From NCBI GenBank assembly GCA_025210295.1, contig JAOASC010000046.1, positions 186,001 through 250,000 of the forward strand: DNA of 64,000 nt, given 5' to 3'. Source of the DNA: Flavobacteriales bacterium (GTDB taxonomy: Bacteria; Bacteroidota; Bacteroidia; Flavobacteriales_D; Parvicellaceae). Numbering within the stretch: position 1 is the stretch's first letter; each line of letters starts with the position of its first letter. Position numbers and translations under genes: made by a program. Below, in pieces: positions 14,077 through 24,435 of the stretch. The notes beneath the pieces were generated by a model that was not told the DNA's origin, searched no databases, and was given only the letters and a program-made list of their open reading frames with translations.

Positions 14077-17000
14077 TTATTTTTTTACTTGAACTTTTAG
14101 ATGACGGATACTCTTGTTACCAACCAATGAAACGGTATAAACCCCATCCGACAAATAACTTAAATCTAGGATATTCTCTTGCTCTGCTGAATAAACCAAT
14201 CGACCTATAGCATCATGCACTAGAGTGTGCGTCCAATCTACTTCAGTACTCTTTATATTAAAAATTCCTGATGATGGATTAGGATATATTTTGATCGTAT
14301 TTTGGCTATTTTCTTCTACACCAACATAACCAACATAAACTAAAACAGAATCTGAACTTGAGCAATCCCCTTCTACACCAGAAAGCACAACATAATATGC
14401 TCCTGCTGTATTATAAATATGATATGGATTTCCCATTATTGACGTCCCCCCGTCTCCAAAGTCCCATAAATAAGTGGAAGCAATAGACCCAGTATTAAAA
14501 AACTGTATCCCTTCCCCTGTATTAATGCTATAGGTATTTGCATCAGCTATCACAACTGCATTGGGGTTGACTTGAACTGGTATTGATAATTGCTGACTAC
14601 ACCCACCGTTTATACCAGTTAACGTTAATGTTGTTGAATATTCAAATACTGAGGTTAATTCAGCTATTGTATCTCCTGTACTCCATACGTAACTGTTCGC
14701 TCCACTTGGAGTAAACGTCGTAGCAACCCCTTGACAAATAGATACAGAAGTTGGAGATACAGATAAACTAGGAACAGTATCAACATAAATAATTGAACTT
14801 AAGCTATCTCTACACATTAAATCGTCTACCAAAACCACTTGATATTCTGTTGTAGTAGATGGCGATACAATATGATAATTTGAATTAGGGAGTCCTTGGT
14901 TCCATTCATAAGTTATATTAGGTGTTGTTCCACTCACGATTATTGTCGCATTATCGCCTTCACAAATATGTTGAGCTCCAGAAATAACACCATCTATCTG
15001 ACTTTGCTTAATTGGAATACTAACCTCTCCTACACAAGCTCCTCCATTAACCCCTCGTAACTTTAAACTATCCAATCCTGATGGATAAGACACCGTGACT
15101 TGACTTACTGTATCTCCTGTATTCCAACTATACACATTTGCGCCAGAAGCCGATACAACAACTTCATCACCTGAGCACAAGACTACTTCACTTTGGTCTA
15201 ATATAAGGTTAGGAGTTTGAATAACAGTAATCTCAGTGGTTAATGTATCGCGACATTCATAATTATCTGTTACAACAACATTATACACTGTTGTTGAAAG
15301 TGGAGAAACCTGATGTGCTTCAATTGCAGGCAATCCATTATCCCATGAAAAGGAGGAATTAAGGTCGGTCGATTCAACAGCTATTGTAACCATATCTCCC
15401 TCACACATTACCAAGGAACTGGTAATTGTATTCTCCATAAAGCTTTCTCCGACATATAGTATTTTTTGTTGTTCACACAATCCATCATTGACACCAGTCA
15501 AAACAATAGAATCAACGCCTAAAGGGTAATCTAATGTTATTGACGCATTTGTCCCCCCAATATTCCAGAGGTAAGAATCTGCTCCTGAGGCTACAACTAA
15601 CTCTGTTTCTCCCCTACACAACACAACTGTATCATGCGTCAATGACATGTTAGGATAAGCAATCACTTCGACTTCTGTAGACAGGGTATCATCACAACCA
15701 TAGGCATCGGTTGCAACGACAGTATAATTTGTTGTTAAATTGGGCGTTATGGTATGAACATTTGTATCTCCCAAACCTAAGTTCCAAGCATAACTGACTC
15801 CTACTCCACCTACTTGTTGCACTTCTATCTGAAGGCTATCTCCTTGACACATACGATAAGATGGTATTAAAGACGTTTCCATATTACTTTGGTTTAATGG
15901 AATAGCAACATAGGTAGAGCAATAATCAATATTATCTATTCCATATACGCTTACCGAATCTAAAGAAGTGGGGTAGGTCACAGTAATAGCATTTGTTGTT
16001 TCATAATTATTCCAAAAATAACTTACTCCCCCAGAAGCGGAAACACTAACTGTTTCATCTTTACATAAATTTACTTCTGTTAATGATAGTGAAACATTGG
16101 GAGATGGGAGAACTTCCAAATAGACCTGATCTTGATTTACACAACCATTAGCATCGGTTCCTGTTACTGTATATGTTCCTGAGACTGTTGGCAAATAGCT
16201 AACCCCATCTGTTACACCATTGGTCCATGAATAAGATTGAGCTCCCCCTCCAGAAAAGACAACTGTATTTCCAGTACACGCTGTATCTTTAGTAGACTGA
16301 GCAACAACTGTTGGTAATGGGTTCACTACCACCTGAACTTGAGCATCATTACTACACCCATTGACATCTGTGCCTCGAACAGTATAAGTAACCGTTGAAG
16401 TTGGTGAAAATGCCGTTCCATCAGTTACCCCATGATCCCACGTATAATTTAGCGCACCACTTCCAGTAAGTGTAACATTATCTCCCATACAGAGAGCTTG
16501 AGAAGTGGCATTTGCGGTTACACTAGGAGGTGAGTGAGGTATATATTGAATCTGGACATTAGCTGTAGTTTGACAACCTGAGGTGGTACCTGTTACACTA
16601 TACGTTGTCGCCGTACTTGGAGACACTGTTTGAACAGCGCTAGTCCCCAGACCATTATCCCAACTGTAAGTACTAGAACCTGAAGCTGTTAAAACGGCCG
16701 ATTCTCCTATGCATATTGCTGTTTTTGAAGCGACTATTGATACTGCTGGAGGCTGATTCATAGTGAAATTTCTCACCCCATTGTTATTTGAAACTTCTTG
16801 ATCAGAATTAGAGGTATTTAAGGTGTTTACCCTTACTTCCACTTCAAAGCTATTGGCTCCATTTACCCCAGAAATATTCGGAATTGATATGGTGGTAGCG
16901 TTTCCTGAAGACAATATTCCAGTCCAAGTATAGGTTGTCCAAGCTCCATTATTGACTCTATACCTGATCTTAAAATTATTTAAAGTTTGTGTACCAATAT

Positions 17001-18165
17001 TAGTCACATCAATATTCCCCGTAAATGTTAGGTCACAATCATTTTTATTGACTGTTACATTATCAATACTTAAATCGTACCTGGGTTCACATTTGGCACA
17101 TTGTGTCATCGTACTAAACCCTCCTGACATTCGAGAACGCATTACAGTTCTTTGACCTGCTGTGAACTCTCCAATACAATTTTGATTATTATAGTCCATG
17201 TAATTCTCAACATTCTGATTGTTACAACCTCCAGAACAAGCGTTAGCCACTACTCTAGCATTCCCAGTATCTCCAATACCATCTCCATTTGAACAAACAT
17301 TGGGGTTAAAATCTGAGAAAGTGTGTGGCAATCCAAAATAATGACCAATTTCGTGCGTTCCTACTCTTCCCTGATAGGCTAATCGCTGATTCCAAAAGAA
17401 ATATCCGGCAGAATTGGCTTGTGCCGAGGTATTTACTCCTAAACAAGCAGAGGCTACGATAAAGCACCCTGCGACCCCTGGCATAGTTCCTCCATCTGGA
17501 TCTGCTAAATTGGTATTCCACATTTGAGTAGGTGTTGTTCCTGCTGTTGGACTTAATGGTGCAAAACCTAGATAACCACCAGAAAAAGTATTCACATTAT
17601 TTTGTCCTTGATTATCAATCTCACTAATCACCCAGATATTTAAGTACCTATTTACATCCCAAGTTGCCCCAGGTCTTGAAGCTATAGAACGTGGTGTAAC
17701 TCCTCCTGTTCCAGGTGTAAACACTCTAATTCCTCTAGTAGCATAATTTCCGACAGAACTGCAATTGTGTCGTGTAATACCTGTTGTTGGATTACCACTT
17801 GGATCTTGTTTAGCTAAACAAAAATCTATTCGTGTATCTACATAAACACCTCTTTGCGATATAGAATGTGTCGCTCTAAAATCTCTATTTAATGCGTCTA
17901 TTAATGAAGTGGCTTGCGCATCTGAAATATTAATACCACTGCCTACAGACTGTCCGGTATGCATAACATGGATAACTACGGGAACTGTATATACATTATT
18001 TTCCCTACATCCAATCGCTTTAGTCTCTCCCAACCTCGACAAACGAATAACCTCTTTCATTTCATCTTTAGTAATAGGGTGTGTATGATGCCCACAAAAA
18101 CCTTGAGCAACTATATCTGAAACGATAAACAACAAATAAAAAACAATGAAACTATATTTAAGCAT
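14077..18165 (-). CDS. M43-type zinc metalloprotease with Ig-like repeats, PKD and T9SS type A tail
   Basis: Secreted metzincin protease of the pappalysin/M43 type. I chose ATG 18165 (1362 residues), which gives a clean signal peptide MLKYSFIVFYLLFIVSDIVAQ; an in-frame GTG 12 bases upstream is the alternative. The catalytic domain spans about 55-330. It holds the zinc site HEIGHYFGLPH (271-281) and the Met-turn NYMDY (Met323). Then come a CARDB-like segment (YDLSIDNVTVNKNDCDLTF), about ten Ig-like modules, one PKD domain (WDFGDGGTS) and a type A sorting tail (IKIYPNPSSGIFNI...LSDGVYTV). Substrates are unknown. It leads the three-gene run with the PKD proteins. Confidence 0.9.
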   Translation of the reverse strand: MLKYSFIVFYLLFIVSDIVAQGFCGHHTHPITKDEMKEVIRLSRLGETKAIGCRENNVYTVPVVIHVMHTGQSVGSGINISDAQATSLIDALNRDFRATHSISQRGVYVDTRIDFCLAKQDPSGNPTTGITRHNCSSVGNYATRGIRVFTPGTGGVTPRSIASRPGATWDVNRYLNIWVISEIDNQGQNNVNTFSGGYLGFAPLSPTAGTTPTQMWNTNLADPDGGTMPGVAGCFIVASACLGVNTSAQANSAGYFFWNQRLAYQGRVGTHEIGHYFGLPHTFSDFNPNVCSNGDGIGDTGNARVVANACSGGCNNQNVENYMDYNNQNCIGEFTAGQRTVMRSRMSGGFSTMTQCAKCEPRYDLSIDNVTVNKNDCDLTFTGNIDVTNIGTQTLNNFKIRYRVNNGAWTTYTWTGILSSGNATTISIPNISGVNGANSFEVEVRVNTLNTSNSDQEVSNNNGVRNFTMNQPPAVSIVASKTAICIGESAVLTASGSSTYSWDNGLGTSAVQTVSPSTATTYSVTGTTSGCQTTANVQIQYIPHSPPSVTANATSQALCMGDNVTLTGSGALNYTWDHGVTDGTAFSPTSTVTYTVRGTDVNGCSNDAQVQVVVNPLPTVVAQSTKDTACTGNTVVFSGGGAQSYSWTNGVTDGVSYLPTVSGTYTVTGTDANGCVNQDQVYLEVLPSPNVSLSLTEVNLCKDETVSVSASGGVSYFWNNYETTNAITVTYPTSLDSVSVYGIDNIDYCSTYVAIPLNQSNMETSLIPSYRMCQGDSLQIEVQQVGGVGVSYAWNLGLGDTNVHTITPNLTTNYTVVATDAYGCDDTLSTEVEVIAYPNMSLTHDTVVLCRGETELVVASGADSYLWNIGGTNASITLDYPLGVDSIVLTGVNDGLCEQQKILYVGESFMENTITSSLVMCEGDMVTIAVESTDLNSSFSWDNGLPAIEAHQVSPLSTTVYNVVVTDNYECRDTLTTEITVIQTPNLILDQSEVVLCSGDEVVVSASGANVYSWNTGDTVSQVTVSYPSGLDSLKLRGVNGGACVGEVSIPIKQSQIDGVISGAQHICEGDNATIIVSGTTPNITYEWNQGLPNSNYHIVSPSTTTEYQVVLVDDLMCRDSLSSIIYVDTVPSLSVSPTSVSICQGVATTFTPSGANSYVWSTGDTIAELTSVFEYSTTLTLTGINGGCSQQLSIPVQVNPNAVVIADANTYSINTGEGIQFFNTGSIASTYLWDFGDGGTSIMGNPYHIYNTAGAYYVVLSGVEGDCSSSDSVLVYVGYVGVEENSQNTIKIYPNPSSGIFNIKSTEVDWTHTLVHDAIGRLVYSAEQENILDLSYLSDGVYTVSLVGNKSIRHLKVQVKK

Positions 18166-18218
18166 AACCTTTATCACTTAACACAATAAATTGACGAAGC
18201 ACTTCATCATAAGTTGCC

Positions 18219-18307: not shown

Positions 18308-19072
18308 CTACCCTAATGAGGCTAAAACCTTAAAGAATGGCTCTTTTTTTCGAATTGATAATGGCACTTTAGATTGATCAGCCATGAGGATAAAACCTCC
18401 CTCTTTCTTTTCATAACTCACTAAATGCTCGAGATTAATTAAATGTGATTTGTGTGTACGAAAAAAGCCTAATTCTTCTAGCATTTCACTATATTCTTTT
18501 AGTGATTTTGCCACAATTATTTTTCTACCATCTACTAAATAGAATGTAGTGTAGTTAATTTCAGCTTCACATTTTATAATATCTGAAGTCTTTATTAACT
18601 TAATAGAATCCTGAGTTTTTAAGATTATTTTTCGGTTGGTCTTCAGCACAGAAGTCAAATGTTCTTTCAGAATTTCAAATTGTACTAACACATCTTTACT
18701 GTTAACTTCCCTATCCTTTACCTTATCAATCGCTGCTGTTAAGTCTTCTAAATCAATTGGTTTTAATAAAAAATCAATTGCACTAATTTTAATAGCGTTT
18801 AAAGCATAATGACTGTGTGCAGTTGTTATGATTACAGCAGCTTTAAGCTCTTCTTTTACTTCATCCAGTAAATCAAACCCAGACTTACCATTATCTAATT
18901 CGATATCTAAAAACACAATATCATAGTCGGTCTTTTCTAGATTTTCTAGCGCTTCAGCGTAAGTATTAGCCACAGCTATCTCTTCGAACAATTCAGAAAA
19001 ATTGTTTTGAAGTAAAAAAAGTAAAACTTCACTTACTTCTTTTATATCGTCTATAATTAATACTTTTAACAT
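18308..19072 (-). CDS. LytTR-family response regulator
   Basis: This 254-residue two-component regulator has a receiver domain at residues 1-120, with acidic pocket Asp8/Asp9, phospho-acceptor Asp56 (DIVFLDIEL), Thr (VIITTAHS) and Lys (LLKPIDLEDL). A LytTR DNA-binding domain occupies about 150-250 (KTSDIIKCEAEINYTTFYL, FFRTHKSHLINLEHL). LytTR regulators bind direct-repeat promoter sites as dimers. It is the last gene of a three-gene leftward operon, 27 bases after the LytS-type kinase, which is its likely phosphodonor. Targets are not evident. Confidence 0.92.
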   Translation of the reverse strand: MLKVLIIDDIKEVSEVLLFLLQNNFSELFEEIAVANTYAEALENLEKTDYDIVFLDIELDNGKSGFDLLDEVKEELKAAVIITTAHSHYALNAIKISAIDFLLKPIDLEDLTAAIDKVKDREVNSKDVLVQFEILKEHLTSVLKTNRKIILKTQDSIKLIKTSDIIKCEAEINYTTFYLVDGRKIIVAKSLKEYSEMLEELGFFRTHKSHLINLEHLVSYEKKEGGFILMADQSKVPLSIRKKEPFFKVLASLG

Positions 19073-19099
19073 AACAACTAATCAAAGGTATTTTATTTT

Positions 19100-21595
19100 T
19101 TATACCTGTACAAATATTTCTACCAAGACCCCCTTTTCTTCTCCTTTAGAATTAGATAAATCTACAATATTTAACCGTACTGCTTTACCTATTTGACTTT
19201 TAATGGTAGCGATTCTTTCTTTTGTTATTTGTATAGAGTAAGACGAGCCTTTTTTTTCGTTTGATGGACTGAATCCCTCTCCAAAATCTCTAACACTACA
19301 ATACAACTCTTTTCCTTTCAGCTCAAAATTTATGACTACTTTACATGCATTAGATGCTGACATTTCACCATATTTCACAGCATTCTCAATAAAAGGCTGC
19401 AACAACATTGGTGGAATCATAATCTCTTCATCTAAGATTTCTTTTTTATAATTCACTTCATAACTTAACTCCTCTTTCTTGTTCATTTGATGAAGGGATA
19501 AAAAGTTTTCGATAATTATCAATTCTGATTCTAAAGTGATTTCTTCTTTTCTTGATGATTCTAATATTAATCGAATCAATTTAGAAAACTGAGAAATATA
19601 GTTATAACTATCGTTTACCCTGTTCGCAACAATAAAACCTCCTATGGTCGTTAAAGAATTGAAAATAAAATGTGGATTCATTTGTGTTCTAAGGAGTTTC
19701 TGCTCTAAGGAAATCAACTTATTTTCTGACTTTAAAGCCTTTCTCCTAAAAAATAGATACATTACGATCAACAATACAATAGCCAACAAAACACTAAAAG
19801 CGACCACAATAAATTGTTGTTCTTCTTTTTGTTGCTCTTTTAATACTTCTATTTCATTTTGTCTAACGAGCTCCAGGCTATCTGTATATATTTTTTGACT
19901 ATATTCAAACTCTGCTTGTTGTCTACCTAGCAACTCTAAATTTTCTGATTTTTTTTCTTCATCTTTTAAAGAGTCTAACACCTCAATCCATTCCAATGCC
20001 TTAGTTAGTTGTTGTGTCTCATTTCGATAAAACCAATACAATTTTCTTGCTATTTTAATTTTATTAGACAGCTCCATCATCTCTGTTCCGTCTGCCACTC
20101 TCCAAGATTGCTCATAATAAAAAGCCGCTTTTTGTTGATTACCAACAACTTCATAATAATCTCCTAGGCCATAATATGGATGAATTAAGATCCTTTTATT
20201 CTCTTGGTTTTCAATTAAATCAACAGCGATGGTATAATTGCTACGAACTAAATTCAAAATAGTATCACTAATTTGCTTTTCATCCCACCCTGATACAGGC
20301 AATACATTTAAATGCTCTAGCACATGTTTTTTTTGAATTGTTGTATCTAAATACGCTCCTAAAATCGCATCTGCCAAGTTATAAAAAGTTGTAGGATTAC
20401 TTGTATCGATCTCCTTTGACAGCGTTGCATATTTTATTGCATTTAAATAGTCTAATATTTCATAGTAATTGTATGATAAATTGGTGTAGGCTACTTCTGT
20501 AGGTATCGGTAGAAATTGATCATAAGCCCTCAATAACTCTATATAAATATTAATTGCCTCTTGGTAGTTTTCTAATTTACCGTATACAAAAGTTGAATTA
20601 TACATTGCCTGAGCTATCAATGCTGAATCGCCAACTTTTTGCCCCCAATTAATTGCCTGTTGGCATAATCTCATTGACGCTTCTGAATCGCCCTTTACTG
20701 AATATAAAAAATTTAGTGGGCCAAATGCTTTTGAATAAGAAATAACATCTCCTTTCTCTAATGCCATTACAATAGCTTGTTCAAAATAAACCTTAGCCGA
20801 ATCATCCTCATAAAAAGAATAAAAACAATTCGCGTATTTTATCGCAGCCCAAACCGCCACATCGTATGGAATTTCTTCGTTTTTGTTATATTCCTCATAA
20901 CTTTTCTTCCCATAAAAAAGTGCAGAATCTTTATTGTTTTGAAATTCAAAAAAATTCATTAGACTCACATTGTAATACAATTCCCCTTGCTGCTCTCGAG
21001 GAACTTCTGACAACTGTTTAATATATTTTCTTGAAGCCTCAAAATTCCCTAAAACCAAATGAGCTAAAGACAATTGATGCAAACTTTTCACCTGATAAAC
21101 CTCATCAATAGCTTTGGATTGATTAACCGCTTTTTCAAAAAAAAGCAATGCACTATCCAGCTCTTTATTTAAGTAACCTTTGCTAAAATAAACGGCACCT
21201 ATTTCTGAATCACAAATAAACTTTAGTTTTTGATCACTTAACTCTTGTAGCAATGCCCTTGATTTTAAATAGTGTTTTAATGCCTGTTCATCTTGTTTCT
21301 TTTTACTATAAAACCTCCCCAACATCATGTGAGCTTTCCCCAGTGACTTTGTTGTTTTCAGTTGATTAGCTATTCTAAATGCTCTATTGGCAATAGCTTG
21401 TATTGAGTCATAATTTACCGCTACTAAATATGCTTTTTGGTATTCAAATAAGTGATCTACATACGCTTCTCTCAATTGATTTTCAGCAGGAACGCTATAC
21501 ACGACATCACGAAGAGAGTCGAGTACTTTTGTTTGACCAGACACCTCTTTGAAACAAAAAAGAAGCAACAGTATTTTCAAGAAGAACTTCACCAC
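19100..21595 (-). CDS. TPR-sensor histidine kinase, LytS (His_kinase) type
   Basis: This 831-residue kinase has a signal peptide, about 550 residues of periplasmic TPR-like helical repeats, a coiled coil, one membrane helix (about 597-616, FIVVAFSVLLAIVLLIVMYLF) and a cytoplasmic His_kinase domain with phospho-acceptor His642 (MNPHFIFNSL). The ATPase part has an N box (PPMLLQPFIENAVKYG) and a G box (VRDFGEGFS). LytS-type kinases pair with LytTR regulators, and the LytTR gene follows directly. The TPR region opens with LDSLRDVVY and is related to the sensor of the SpoIIE protein encoded just upstream, suggesting duplication. The stimulus is unknown. Confidence 0.92.
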   Translation of the reverse strand: MVKFFLKILLLLFCFKEVSGQTKVLDSLRDVVYSVPAENQLREAYVDHLFEYQKAYLVAVNYDSIQAIANRAFRIANQLKTTKSLGKAHMMLGRFYSKKKQDEQALKHYLKSRALLQELSDQKLKFICDSEIGAVYFSKGYLNKELDSALLFFEKAVNQSKAIDEVYQVKSLHQLSLAHLVLGNFEASRKYIKQLSEVPREQQGELYYNVSLMNFFEFQNNKDSALFYGKKSYEEYNKNEEIPYDVAVWAAIKYANCFYSFYEDDSAKVYFEQAIVMALEKGDVISYSKAFGPLNFLYSVKGDSEASMRLCQQAINWGQKVGDSALIAQAMYNSTFVYGKLENYQEAINIYIELLRAYDQFLPIPTEVAYTNLSYNYYEILDYLNAIKYATLSKEIDTSNPTTFYNLADAILGAYLDTTIQKKHVLEHLNVLPVSGWDEKQISDTILNLVRSNYTIAVDLIENQENKRILIHPYYGLGDYYEVVGNQQKAAFYYEQSWRVADGTEMMELSNKIKIARKLYWFYRNETQQLTKALEWIEVLDSLKDEEKKSENLELLGRQQAEFEYSQKIYTDSLELVRQNEIEVLKEQQKEEQQFIVVAFSVLLAIVLLIVMYLFFRRKALKSENKLISLEQKLLRTQMNPHFIFNSLTTIGGFIVANRVNDSYNYISQFSKLIRLILESSRKEEITLESELIIIENFLSLHQMNKKEELSYEVNYKKEILDEEIMIPPMLLQPFIENAVKYGEMSASNACKVVINFELKGKELYCSVRDFGEGFSPSNEKKGSSYSIQITKERIATIKSQIGKAVRLNIVDLSNSKGEEKGVLVEIFVQV

Positions 21596-21602
21596 TTATA
21601 AC

Positions 21603-24320
21603 TTATAATTTTATCCCCACAACAGTCATATCATCTAATTGCTCAAACTGATCACCTATCCAAGTTTCTCTTAACTCTTTTAATTTAACATGCTGTTCGG
21701 TCATTAAACACTCTGAATGCTCTAACAAAAATGCTCGTAATCGTTTGGCATAAAACTTCTTCCCCTTTTCTCCTCCTTTTTGATCCGGCAAACCATCTGT
21801 AGACATGTATATGACATCTCCTTTTTCATAAGGAATATAGTGAACCTTAGGTTCAGGTTGATCCAACTTTGCCCCTAAGAACAAATTACTTCCCTTATAC
21901 TCCACCAACTCCCCATTTCTAACATGGTATAAAGGAAGATGAGCTCCAGCAAACTCTATAGTCTTTTCATCAATAACACAAATCGCTAAATCCATCCCGT
22001 CTTTTACTGACGATTGATTACGTTGACTTAGTCGCTCTATTAAACGAACATTAATCGCCTTTAAAATAGCTGCTGTATCGGTTATCCCCTCCTGTATAAC
22101 CTCTTTAAGAATATTAATTCCAATGATCGTCATAAAAGCACCTGGAACTCCATGCCCAGTACAATCAGCAGTAACAAAAACACGTTTACCATCAACCTCT
22201 ACATACCAATAAAAATCTCCACTTACCACATCTTTGGGTTCAAAAAAGATAAACGAATCTGGAAATAATTCCTTTAACAAATAACTTGATGGAAAAACTG
22301 CTTTTTGAATTCTCTTACTGTAATTAATACTATCCTGAATTCCTTCATGTGTTTTACGCAATTGCGTCCTTTTCTCATCAATAGCTTCTTTTTGTAACTC
22401 TATTACTTTCTTTTGTTTTAATGTTAGTTGAAATCTCCTGTATAAAACCAACAAAAACAAAACTAACAAGAGCAACCCTCCGTATAAATAATACCGTTTC
22501 GTTTGTTCCGCTTCCAATTTTAACTCCTGTTGTTCTTTCTCGTATTTAATCTGTAAATCTTTCTCTTTTTGCTTTAAACTATCTGCATATAATTTTTGGC
22601 TAAACTCGTATTCTGCCTGTTTTTTACCTAATTCTTTTAAATTATTTTGGGCTAACTGCTCTTTTTCAAGAGAATCGGTAATCTCCAACCAATGTAAAGC
22701 TGCTCCATTATTCTTTTTTTCTTTATTTAAAATATAAAGACGTTTAGCTACCCTCAATTTATCCTTAAGCATTGTTCTCTCTACATTAGACGAATACTCC
22801 CATGCTTTTGTATAATTGACCAATGCACTGCTTCTATCACCTATTGTAAAGTAATAATCTCCTAACCCATTATATGGATGCACCAAGTCTTTAAAGTTTT
22901 GCGTTTGTTCCAATATTGGAATTGATTTTTCATAAAACTTTCTCACCAAATCCAGTACTTCTTTTTTAGCTTTATCCTCTGAATCAATAACAACATTACC
23001 CTCTCCTTCTATTACTCTTGGTAATATCGTTATCTTTTTTATTGAAGAATCCTTATAAGCTGCTAAATAAGCATCCCCTAGGTTGAAATAAACATTTGAT
23101 TTATCAGGATTTAACCTTAAGGCTACTAATCCATATTTTATAGCATTTACATAATCTTCATCCTCGTGATAGAAATAGGATAAATCTGAATTAAAAGTCT
23201 GTTCATAATGAGATGGAAAAAAAGCCAAATAGTTCTGCAACAAATCTAAGTCAATGTTAATTGCAGATTTATAATCTTTCATGGCATCATACACAAAAGT
23301 CATTGAATATTTAGATTTAGCAATTAAAGAAGAGTCACCATACTCATGCCCTAATTTTATAGCCGAATTAGCAAGATCTAGTGCTTTTTCATTTTCCCCT
23401 TTATTCGTCAACACATAAGACAAGACATGAAAAACCCGATTAAAAACATCTATTTCTTTAATTTCTAAAGATAATTTGACACAAGAATCTAAATAAACAA
23501 TACAGGAATCATACTCTTTAAGCGTATAATAAGAAGTTCCTATTCTGGCATATTGATTATTCAATAATTTTTTATAGTTTTTTAATTGTTTTCTTTGCTG
23601 ATGCAGTATTGCTTTTCCTTTTTTTAAGTAAAGAAACACAGAATCTTTCTCTTGTTTCTTTTTATAAATATCAGACTTAACTTTATAATACAACAACTCC
23701 GTTTCAATATCCTTATTCTCTTCAGCCAACTGTTGTATATAATCTACATAAACGTTTGCTGAATCGAACGCCTTCACACTTGTATAAACTTGTGCAATTC
23801 GATGATAACCAGTCGCTTGTTCTTTAACAGACACCGCATCCAGATATGCTAATGCGCTATAATATGCTAACAAGGTACTATCAAAATCCTCTAAACGATT
23901 TCCTTTTTTTAACCAATGATAGTTAGTTCCTCGATAAGCCTCTAAATAATACTTCAAACGCCTGTTATTTACTGTTTCTAGCAAAGCTTCTAATTCATTA
24001 AAACGGTTCAATGATTCACGAAACTTTCTTTTTTTATACAACAACTTCGCTTCCAACATCTTTGCTTTCGCTAAGGATTCATTATCACCTATTAAGCTGG
24101 CTAATCTTATTGCTTTAGCTTGATACAATTCCATAGAGTCATAATTTGTTTTCTTAAAAAACTCATTATGAATTTTACAAATCAAATTTAGTTTTGCTGT
24201 ATCCTGATTAAGATTCACTTGATAAAGCTTCCTCAAAGAATCAATTTCCTTACTTTGAGAAAAAACAACAACACCGTATAACACGGCTAAAAACACACCT
24301 AAAACTTTTATCATAATCAA
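21603..24320 (-). CDS. TPR-sensor protein with SpoIIE (PP2C-type) phosphatase output
   Basis: This 905-residue protein has a signal peptide, about 580 residues of periplasmic TPR-like repeats, one membrane helix (YYLYGGLLLLVLFLLVLY, about 627-644), a short coiled coil and a C-terminal SpoIIE/PP2C domain (about 680-905). Metal-binding acidic motifs are present: VVSGDFYW, TADCTGHGVPGAF, STDGLPDQKGG and LDDMTVVGIKL. The family dephosphorylates Ser/Thr-phosphorylated proteins, often anti-sigma antagonists in partner-switching systems. No such antagonist is next door. It is first in the operon, 7 bases before the LytS-type kinase, and shares the same sensor layout. Confidence 0.9.
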   Translation of the reverse strand: MIMIKVLGVFLAVLYGVVVFSQSKEIDSLRKLYQVNLNQDTAKLNLICKIHNEFFKKTNYDSMELYQAKAIRLASLIGDNESLAKAKMLEAKLLYKKRKFRESLNRFNELEALLETVNNRRLKYYLEAYRGTNYHWLKKGNRLEDFDSTLLAYYSALAYLDAVSVKEQATGYHRIAQVYTSVKAFDSANVYVDYIQQLAEENKDIETELLYYKVKSDIYKKKQEKDSVFLYLKKGKAILHQQRKQLKNYKKLLNNQYARIGTSYYTLKEYDSCIVYLDSCVKLSLEIKEIDVFNRVFHVLSYVLTNKGENEKALDLANSAIKLGHEYGDSSLIAKSKYSMTFVYDAMKDYKSAINIDLDLLQNYLAFFPSHYEQTFNSDLSYFYHEDEDYVNAIKYGLVALRLNPDKSNVYFNLGDAYLAAYKDSSIKKITILPRVIEGEGNVVIDSEDKAKKEVLDLVRKFYEKSIPILEQTQNFKDLVHPYNGLGDYYFTIGDRSSALVNYTKAWEYSSNVERTMLKDKLRVAKRLYILNKEKKNNGAALHWLEITDSLEKEQLAQNNLKELGKKQAEYEFSQKLYADSLKQKEKDLQIKYEKEQQELKLEAEQTKRYYLYGGLLLLVLFLLVLYRRFQLTLKQKKVIELQKEAIDEKRTQLRKTHEGIQDSINYSKRIQKAVFPSSYLLKELFPDSFIFFEPKDVVSGDFYWYVEVDGKRVFVTADCTGHGVPGAFMTIIGINILKEVIQEGITDTAAILKAINVRLIERLSQRNQSSVKDGMDLAICVIDEKTIEFAGAHLPLYHVRNGELVEYKGSNLFLGAKLDQPEPKVHYIPYEKGDVIYMSTDGLPDQKGGEKGKKFYAKRLRAFLLEHSECLMTEQHVKLKELRETWIGDQFEQLDDMTVVGIKL

Positions 24321-24400: not shown

Positions 24401-24435
24401 TGACTTATTGAAAGCATTTCCTTAATAATAAGTCA
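24401..24435. promoter_or_regulatory. 9-bp perfect inverted repeat upstream of cystathionine beta-synthase
   Basis: TGACTTATT (24401-24409) and AATAAGTCA (24427-24435) are exact inverted copies with a 17-base spacer. The gap is divergent, so no terminator is expected. The right arm ends about 32 bases before the -7 element at 24467, a position suited to an activator or repressor dimer. The binding protein is unknown. Confidence 0.4.

Follow-up and report, generated by a model that had tools for sequence, protein, structure and literature searches.

A lineage-specific phosphatase-kinase-regulator gene cluster with an apparently chimeric TPR histidine kinase in a Flavobacteriales bacterium

The locus described here raises the question of whether two related sensors, one on a protein phosphatase and one on a histidine kinase, carry a single stimulus to two signalling outputs. 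The first of its three genes, P, codes for a TPR-SpoIIE phosphatase, the second, K, for a TPR-LytS kinase and the third, R, for a LytTR response regulator; they lie in a stretch of 64,000 nucleotides (the window) from a draft Flavobacteriales genome. Should both sensors still respond to a common signal, a partner switch and a transcriptional response would be set jointly by that one stimulus. An earlier note on this DNA had described a phosphatase gene, a kinase gene 7 bases further on and then a LytTR regulator gene, and we confirmed this arrangement from the open reading frames and from Pfam matches (E-values of 4.7e-20 for SpoIIE, 1.9e-17 for His_kinase, 3.9e-19 for Response_reg and 1.6e-16 for LytTR), with TPR families matching as well. 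The operon-like character of the locus is also supported, as all three genes occupy the same strand with gaps of 7 bases (P-K) and 27 bases (K-R); from this layout, P, K and R are probably co-transcribed. The coordinates are collected in Table 1.

Table 1. Features of the P-K-R locus and its surroundings, in window coordinates
Feature	Position	Strand	Remarks
P, TPR-SpoIIE (SiaA-like) protein phosphatase gene	21603..24320	-	905 aa from TTG
P sensor, periplasmic TPR region	22521..24251	-	aa 24-600 of the listed ORF; homologous to K sensor
P membrane helix	22419..22499	-	about aa 608-634; hydropathy
P output, SiaA-like helices and PP2C/SpoIIE catalytic domain	21609..22394	-	aa 643-904
K, TPR-LytS histidine kinase gene	19100..21595	-	831 aa; GTG start 7 bases past P
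K sensor, periplasmic TPR region of P-family type	19826..21538	-	aa 20-590; sensor tree, AlphaFold model
K membrane helix, apparent site of sensor/output junction	19733..19825	-	aa 591-621; hydropathy, block identity
K output, DHp/ATPase	19103..19705	-	aa 631-831; His_kinase PF06580; H642, N738, D770
R, LytTR response regulator (REC and LytTR)	18308..19072	-	254 aa; phospho-acceptor D56
Secreted M43 metalloprotease with PKD and T9SS tail, downstream of R	14077..18177	-	homologue follows K-R in genome G002
Perfect 9-bp dyad TGACTTATT-N17-AATAAGTCA	24401..24435		divergent promoter region upstream of P

The further claim that P and K share one layout holds for the order of parts. Each protein has one N-terminal, signal-like hydrophobic stretch and one internal stretch that forms the membrane helix, about 570 residues of TPR-type helices lie between the two, and an output domain follows. 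The cytoplasmic linkers do not fit the claim, as that of K is short (about 20 residues) whereas that of P is longer and helical. P probably starts at the ATG at 24314 (903 aa) rather than at the listed TTG. The catalytic residues look intact in the phosphatase (D702, D719, D777, D842 and D897 of the P output), the kinase and the receiver. An AlphaFold model of the K sensor is an all-helical TPR solenoid (mean pLDDT 82) that ends in a long helix of low confidence. When this sensor was searched against structures in the PDB, the best matches were TPR proteins of the general solenoid kind, mostly eukaryotic LGN and OGT, and thus no ligand is indicated.

The homology of the two TPR regions, on which the earlier note depended, is well founded. 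The K and P sensors align over their full length of about 580 residues with 31% identity (262–269 bits, E-values of about 1e-81 to 1e-84), well beyond what the TPR background gives. The runner-up sensor in the same genome reaches only 67–74 bits against K or P; similarity arising from generic TPR repeats alone was considered and rejected, since the other TPR sensors of the genome remain below 75 bits against either protein. In an all-versus-all comparison of 32 phosphatase and 17 kinase sensors, K and P form the strongest pair across the two output classes, with 259 bits. Identity is distributed unevenly along the alignment. It is lowest in the N-terminal half (15–28% per block, columns 1–300) and reaches 33–49% in columns 300–589, where several blocks are comparable to those between P and its orthologue in G006, a genome of the same genus. 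P and this orthologue are 38% identical in the sensor and 73% in the output, which shows that sensors change fast here.

We then asked how far the arrangement extends beyond this genome. Orthologues of P are present in two of the six other genomes of the genus, G002 and G006; both are phosphatases and are 50%–57% identical to P. Among 100 relatives and 399 genomes of the order, the P-type sensor is confined to these two genomes and our own, and a scan of 84,980 species genomes returned G002 and G006 again and no more. The P orthologue of G002 is followed by genes for a small heavy-metal-domain protein and a transporter, that of G006 has a Dps gene beside it on the opposite strand, and no kinase gene adjoins either of them where sequence is visible. 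The G006 orthologue (L070, about base 126) contains one in-frame TAA just past the signal-peptide region, and this gene may be broken or a base may have been miscalled. Eight other genomes of the order, for which the domain lists are complete, hold 140 SpoIIE and 65 kinase matches and no tandem SpoIIE/LytS neighbours of the P-K type. The nearest arrangement is a SpoIIE/kinase neighbour on opposite strands in G090. Neighbourhoods in the order kinase, regulator, SpoIIE phosphatase occur in G082 (gap of about 450 bp) and, among the matches listed, in G048 (36-bp gap), but their order is the opposite of P-K-R and no sensor homology is detectable. These neighbourhoods lie at L145:2892-6484 and L144:1175-7410, where regulator and phosphatase are 36 and about 450 bases apart. 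The P-K pair is thus seen in one draft genome only. The earlier note had itself named absence of the gene order from related genomes as an outcome that would count against its module, and the order is absent from those surveyed. P-K-R is not a conserved module; it is lineage-specific.

The history of K becomes clearer when it is compared with a kinase-regulator pair of G002 (L172, 430-3324), which has no phosphatase gene upstream. The kinase output of this pair is 54% identical to that of K and its regulator is 61% identical to R, and a related M43 protease follows, as in our own locus. The protease stands outside the signalling system and serves as a marker of an orthologous K-R-protease block. 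The sensor of the G002 kinase (G002_K) is a different one, scoring about 38 bits only against that of K. In the output tree K groups with G002_K (support 99/96), and in the sensor tree it groups with P and its orthologues G002_P and G006_P (support 100/100). A constraint that places the sensors of K and G002_K together was rejected (p-AU 0.0005). Along K itself, block identity is nearer to P and G002_P over most of residues 1–560, this excess fades at about 561–600, and from about residue 601, inside the membrane helix, K is nearer to G002_K. From the conflict between the two trees and this switch in identity, it follows that either K or G002_K swapped its sensor. K has the appearance of a chimera whose parts meet at the membrane helix. 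Either kinase may have been the one that changed, and it is simpler to assume that the sensor passed from a phosphatase to a kinase, because the sensor clade consists mostly of phosphatases (three of four members, or six of eight when the clade is drawn more widely). We also considered a recent tandem copy made inside this genome and rejected it, if weakly, on the constraint of K and P as sisters (p-AU 0.027). As K moreover stands outside the clade of the three P-type phosphatases (99/99), the swap was probably not recent.

Sensors are shared between output classes elsewhere in this genome as well. It contains 36 SpoIIE and 21 His_kinase matches (about 35 SpoIIE phosphatases and 20 LytS kinases), and most of the kinase genes adjoin a gene for a LytTR regulator. 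A second cross-class sensor pair, between a kinase at C46:362 kb and a phosphatase on C5, scores 253 bits, and others score 100–210 bits. Cross-class sharing of sensors is thus a widespread feature of the genome. No further phosphatase-kinase neighbour pair was found in it; within this genome, a pair with matched sensors side by side is unique to P and K. Tandem SpoIIE genes are frequent, with spacings of -24 to 5 bp, and are found at C16, C28, C8, C9 and C46:176-182 kb, some with clearly related sensors. Phosphatase genes thus multiply in tandem here. We also noted a SpoIIE phosphatase at L127:2595-4922 (C47:28608-30935) whose TPR sensor matches the profile of FimS from P. gingivalis with 172 bits; judged by sequence, this is another sensor shared between phosphatase and kinase.

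The catalytic half of P gives some indication of its target. Along its length, it matches the PP2C domain of SiaA (PDB 6k4e_A) with 123 bits, metal-binding Asp included. The SiaA residues D457, D474, G477, D600, G601 and D653 are aligned and identical in P in the 6k4e alignment; the counterparts in P of the metal-binding residues, which are named for SiaA in PMC7647112, are D702, D719, D842 and the DD pair at 896–897. Against the SiaA equivalog NF038263, P scores 170.8 bits versus a cut-off of 700, and profile positions 393–656 alone match. A SiaA-type output was also found in eight of the nine other phosphatases of the genome that were tested. SiaA removes the phosphate from a threonine of SiaC, in the motif LNTSS, to which SiaB adds it (PMC7647112). 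Neither siaB nor siaC is present in the P operon and no SiaC gene lies near P. Elsewhere, the genome encodes seven SiaC proteins, six of which carry T or S where the acceptor is expected (NTSS in P. aeruginosa), at least four SiaB-like (DUF6272) proteins, and only two standalone STAS proteins. Given the SiaA-type output and seven SiaC proteins as against two standalone STAS proteins, a SiaC protein is the likeliest target of P, which probably acts on a SiaC (or STAS) substrate.

Several SiaC loci deserve mention in their own right. A DUF6272 gene is the immediate neighbour of four of the seven SiaC genes (L133, L137, L138 and L139); in Pfam, the DUF6272 family is annotated as of unknown function. 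At L139:929-3375 (C24, about 7.9–10.8 kb), the end of a TPR-SpoIIE gene on the opposite strand abuts a SiaB-like and SiaC pair, and by its gene content this can be regarded as a SiaABC-like cluster in Bacteroidota. In another genome (G047 contig 25; L146:6405-8717), genes for a LytS kinase, a LytTR regulator and what by eye is an apparent SiaC follow one another, a hint that LytTR systems and SiaC partner switches may be connected. Our own locus points to a little-studied Bacteroidota network, in which one genome has about 35 SpoIIE phosphatases and 20 LytS kinases alongside seven SiaC proteins.

The sequences around the genes offer few regulatory signals. The TGACTTATT/AATAAGTCA dyad, with its 17-base spacer, sits between the divergent genes for P and a cystathionine-synthase-like protein; it occurs once in the window and never in shuffled sequences, and it is possibly an operator. 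A TTG-N20-TACCTTTG pattern at 19083-19113, shortly before the start of R, resembles the promoter consensus of Bacteroidota. A separate promoter for R may thus lie between K and R, although the pattern occurs in the window at chance frequency. Promoter and terminator scans gave counts at or below chance.

Taken as a whole, we consider it reasonably likely that P-K-R is a lineage-specific, probably co-transcribed signalling cluster with a chimeric kinase, for which we propose the following origin and mode of action. K-R would be an older LytS-LytTR two-component system, kept in G002 with a different sensor. A phosphatase gene was probably duplicated in tandem (P-P') upstream of K-R, a precursor made plausible by the frequency of tandem SpoIIE genes. 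The output of the second copy would then have been replaced by the kinase half when the DNA separating the P' sensor from the K output was lost, and such a loss from a P-P' tandem before K-R would give exactly the layout observed. Both sensors would be periplasmic and would recognise one ligand or protein partner, or two related ones, and the signal would travel along the membrane-proximal helix to dimeric outputs. P would then remove the phosphate from a partner-switch protein of the SiaC (or STAS) type whose gene lies away from this locus, and K would alter the phosphorylation of R and thereby transcription, as K and R are expected to form an ordinary LytS-LytTR relay. That one stimulus drives both branches is plausible because the genes are co-located and the C-terminal half of the sensors, with the stalk, is the better kept; at 31% identity, the sensors could nevertheless bind different ligands. 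It is also conceivable, although we think it improbable, that the paralogous sensors pair in the periplasm, as mixed dimers or through a common partner protein, to form one receptor complex with two outputs that differ in their chemistry. The homologous membrane-proximal stalk and the operon layout would be compatible with such pairing and, if it were true, one binding event would set a His-Asp relay as well as a Ser/Thr partner switch, with the ratio of the two fixed.

The main competing explanation is that P and K share ancestry but now belong to two independent systems that read different stimuli, their adjacency being a leftover of duplication devoid of joint function. We regard this as a possible but less likely account. 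The low overall identity of the sensors, lowest of all in the N-terminal half, agrees with it, as do the fast change of sensors between P and G006_P and the commonness of diverged tandem SpoIIE pairs in the genome. However, the 7-base gap between P and K suggests co-expression, and the C-terminal half of the sensors has retained, in several blocks, as much identity as P shares with its G006 orthologue. Far less credit can be given to a dual-output module of phosphatase, kinase and LytTR regulator maintained by selection across related bacteria. The operon-like layout, the homologous sensors and the neighbourhoods of G082 and G048 speak for such a module, but both the gene order and the pairing of sensors are absent from congeners and from the order, and those neighbourhoods run the other way with sensors that are not detectably homologous, so that this explanation is very unlikely and largely refuted. 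Least probable of all is a mis-join in the assembly. The genome is indeed a draft of 48 contigs, yet about 160 kb separate the locus from the closer end of its contig (371 kb), GC content is even (30%–32%) across genes whose reading frames are all intact and whose gaps are so short, and the K-R-protease synteny recurs in an independent genome, G002.

Our preferred reading, a lineage-specific cluster with a chimeric kinase, can be set beside several known systems, although a search of the open-licence literature found no description of a P-K-R operon or of SiaC networks in Bacteroidota. With SiaA of the SiaABCD system of Pseudomonas aeruginosa (6k4e; PMC7647112), P shares the catalytic half with its N-terminal dimer helices and metal-binding Asp residues, and homologues of SiaC and SiaB are encoded in the genome. 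P differs in that its sensor is a periplasmic TPR solenoid, that siaB, siaC and siaD are not beside it, and that it scores just 171 of 700 bits. With LytS/LytTR systems (PF06580 and PF04397), K and R share the kinase core, the receiver-LytTR regulator and the order of the two genes; H642 of K lies in the motif NPHFIFN, N738 is in place for ATP binding, and the adjoining REC-LytTR regulator has its acceptor at D56. The sensor of LytS is multi-spanning, whereas K has a TPR sensor and one membrane helix; no multi-spanning sensor of the LytS type was found in K, in which only TPR families match outside the kinase core (Pfam) and a single hydrophobic stretch is internal. Our locus also differs in that a phosphatase gene with a homologous sensor precedes K. 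FimS of Porphyromonas gingivalis (NF053520) is similar in carrying a TPR sensor on a histidine kinase in Bacteroidota, but neither K nor P matches its profile. Another parallel is the proposal that dimeric coiled-coil linkers allow PPM phosphatases, histidine kinases and diguanylate cyclases to exchange sensors (PMC12143880), a common linker having been noted earlier in the signalling-helix paper (PMC1592074). P and K correspond to this proposal, as homologous sensors are found on a phosphatase and a histidine kinase, apparently joined through the membrane-proximal helix. The examples given there are RsbU-N, PAS, GAF and REC domains; P and K have a long periplasmic TPR sensor and stand in one operon. 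P-K-R is therefore not a new kind of system, since sensors exchangeable between phosphatases and kinases have already been proposed. Such exchange has so far been argued mainly from domain lists and models, and P-K is a naturally occurring example for which a phylogenetic placement is possible, with a donor-type gene beside the chimeric kinase and a relative that keeps K-R with another sensor. With its two outputs, the pair also allows one to test whether both chemistries can be driven by a single TPR sensor. Among known systems, the P-K locus is best regarded as a clean instance of the exchange proposed in PMC12143880, with a long periplasmic TPR sensor.
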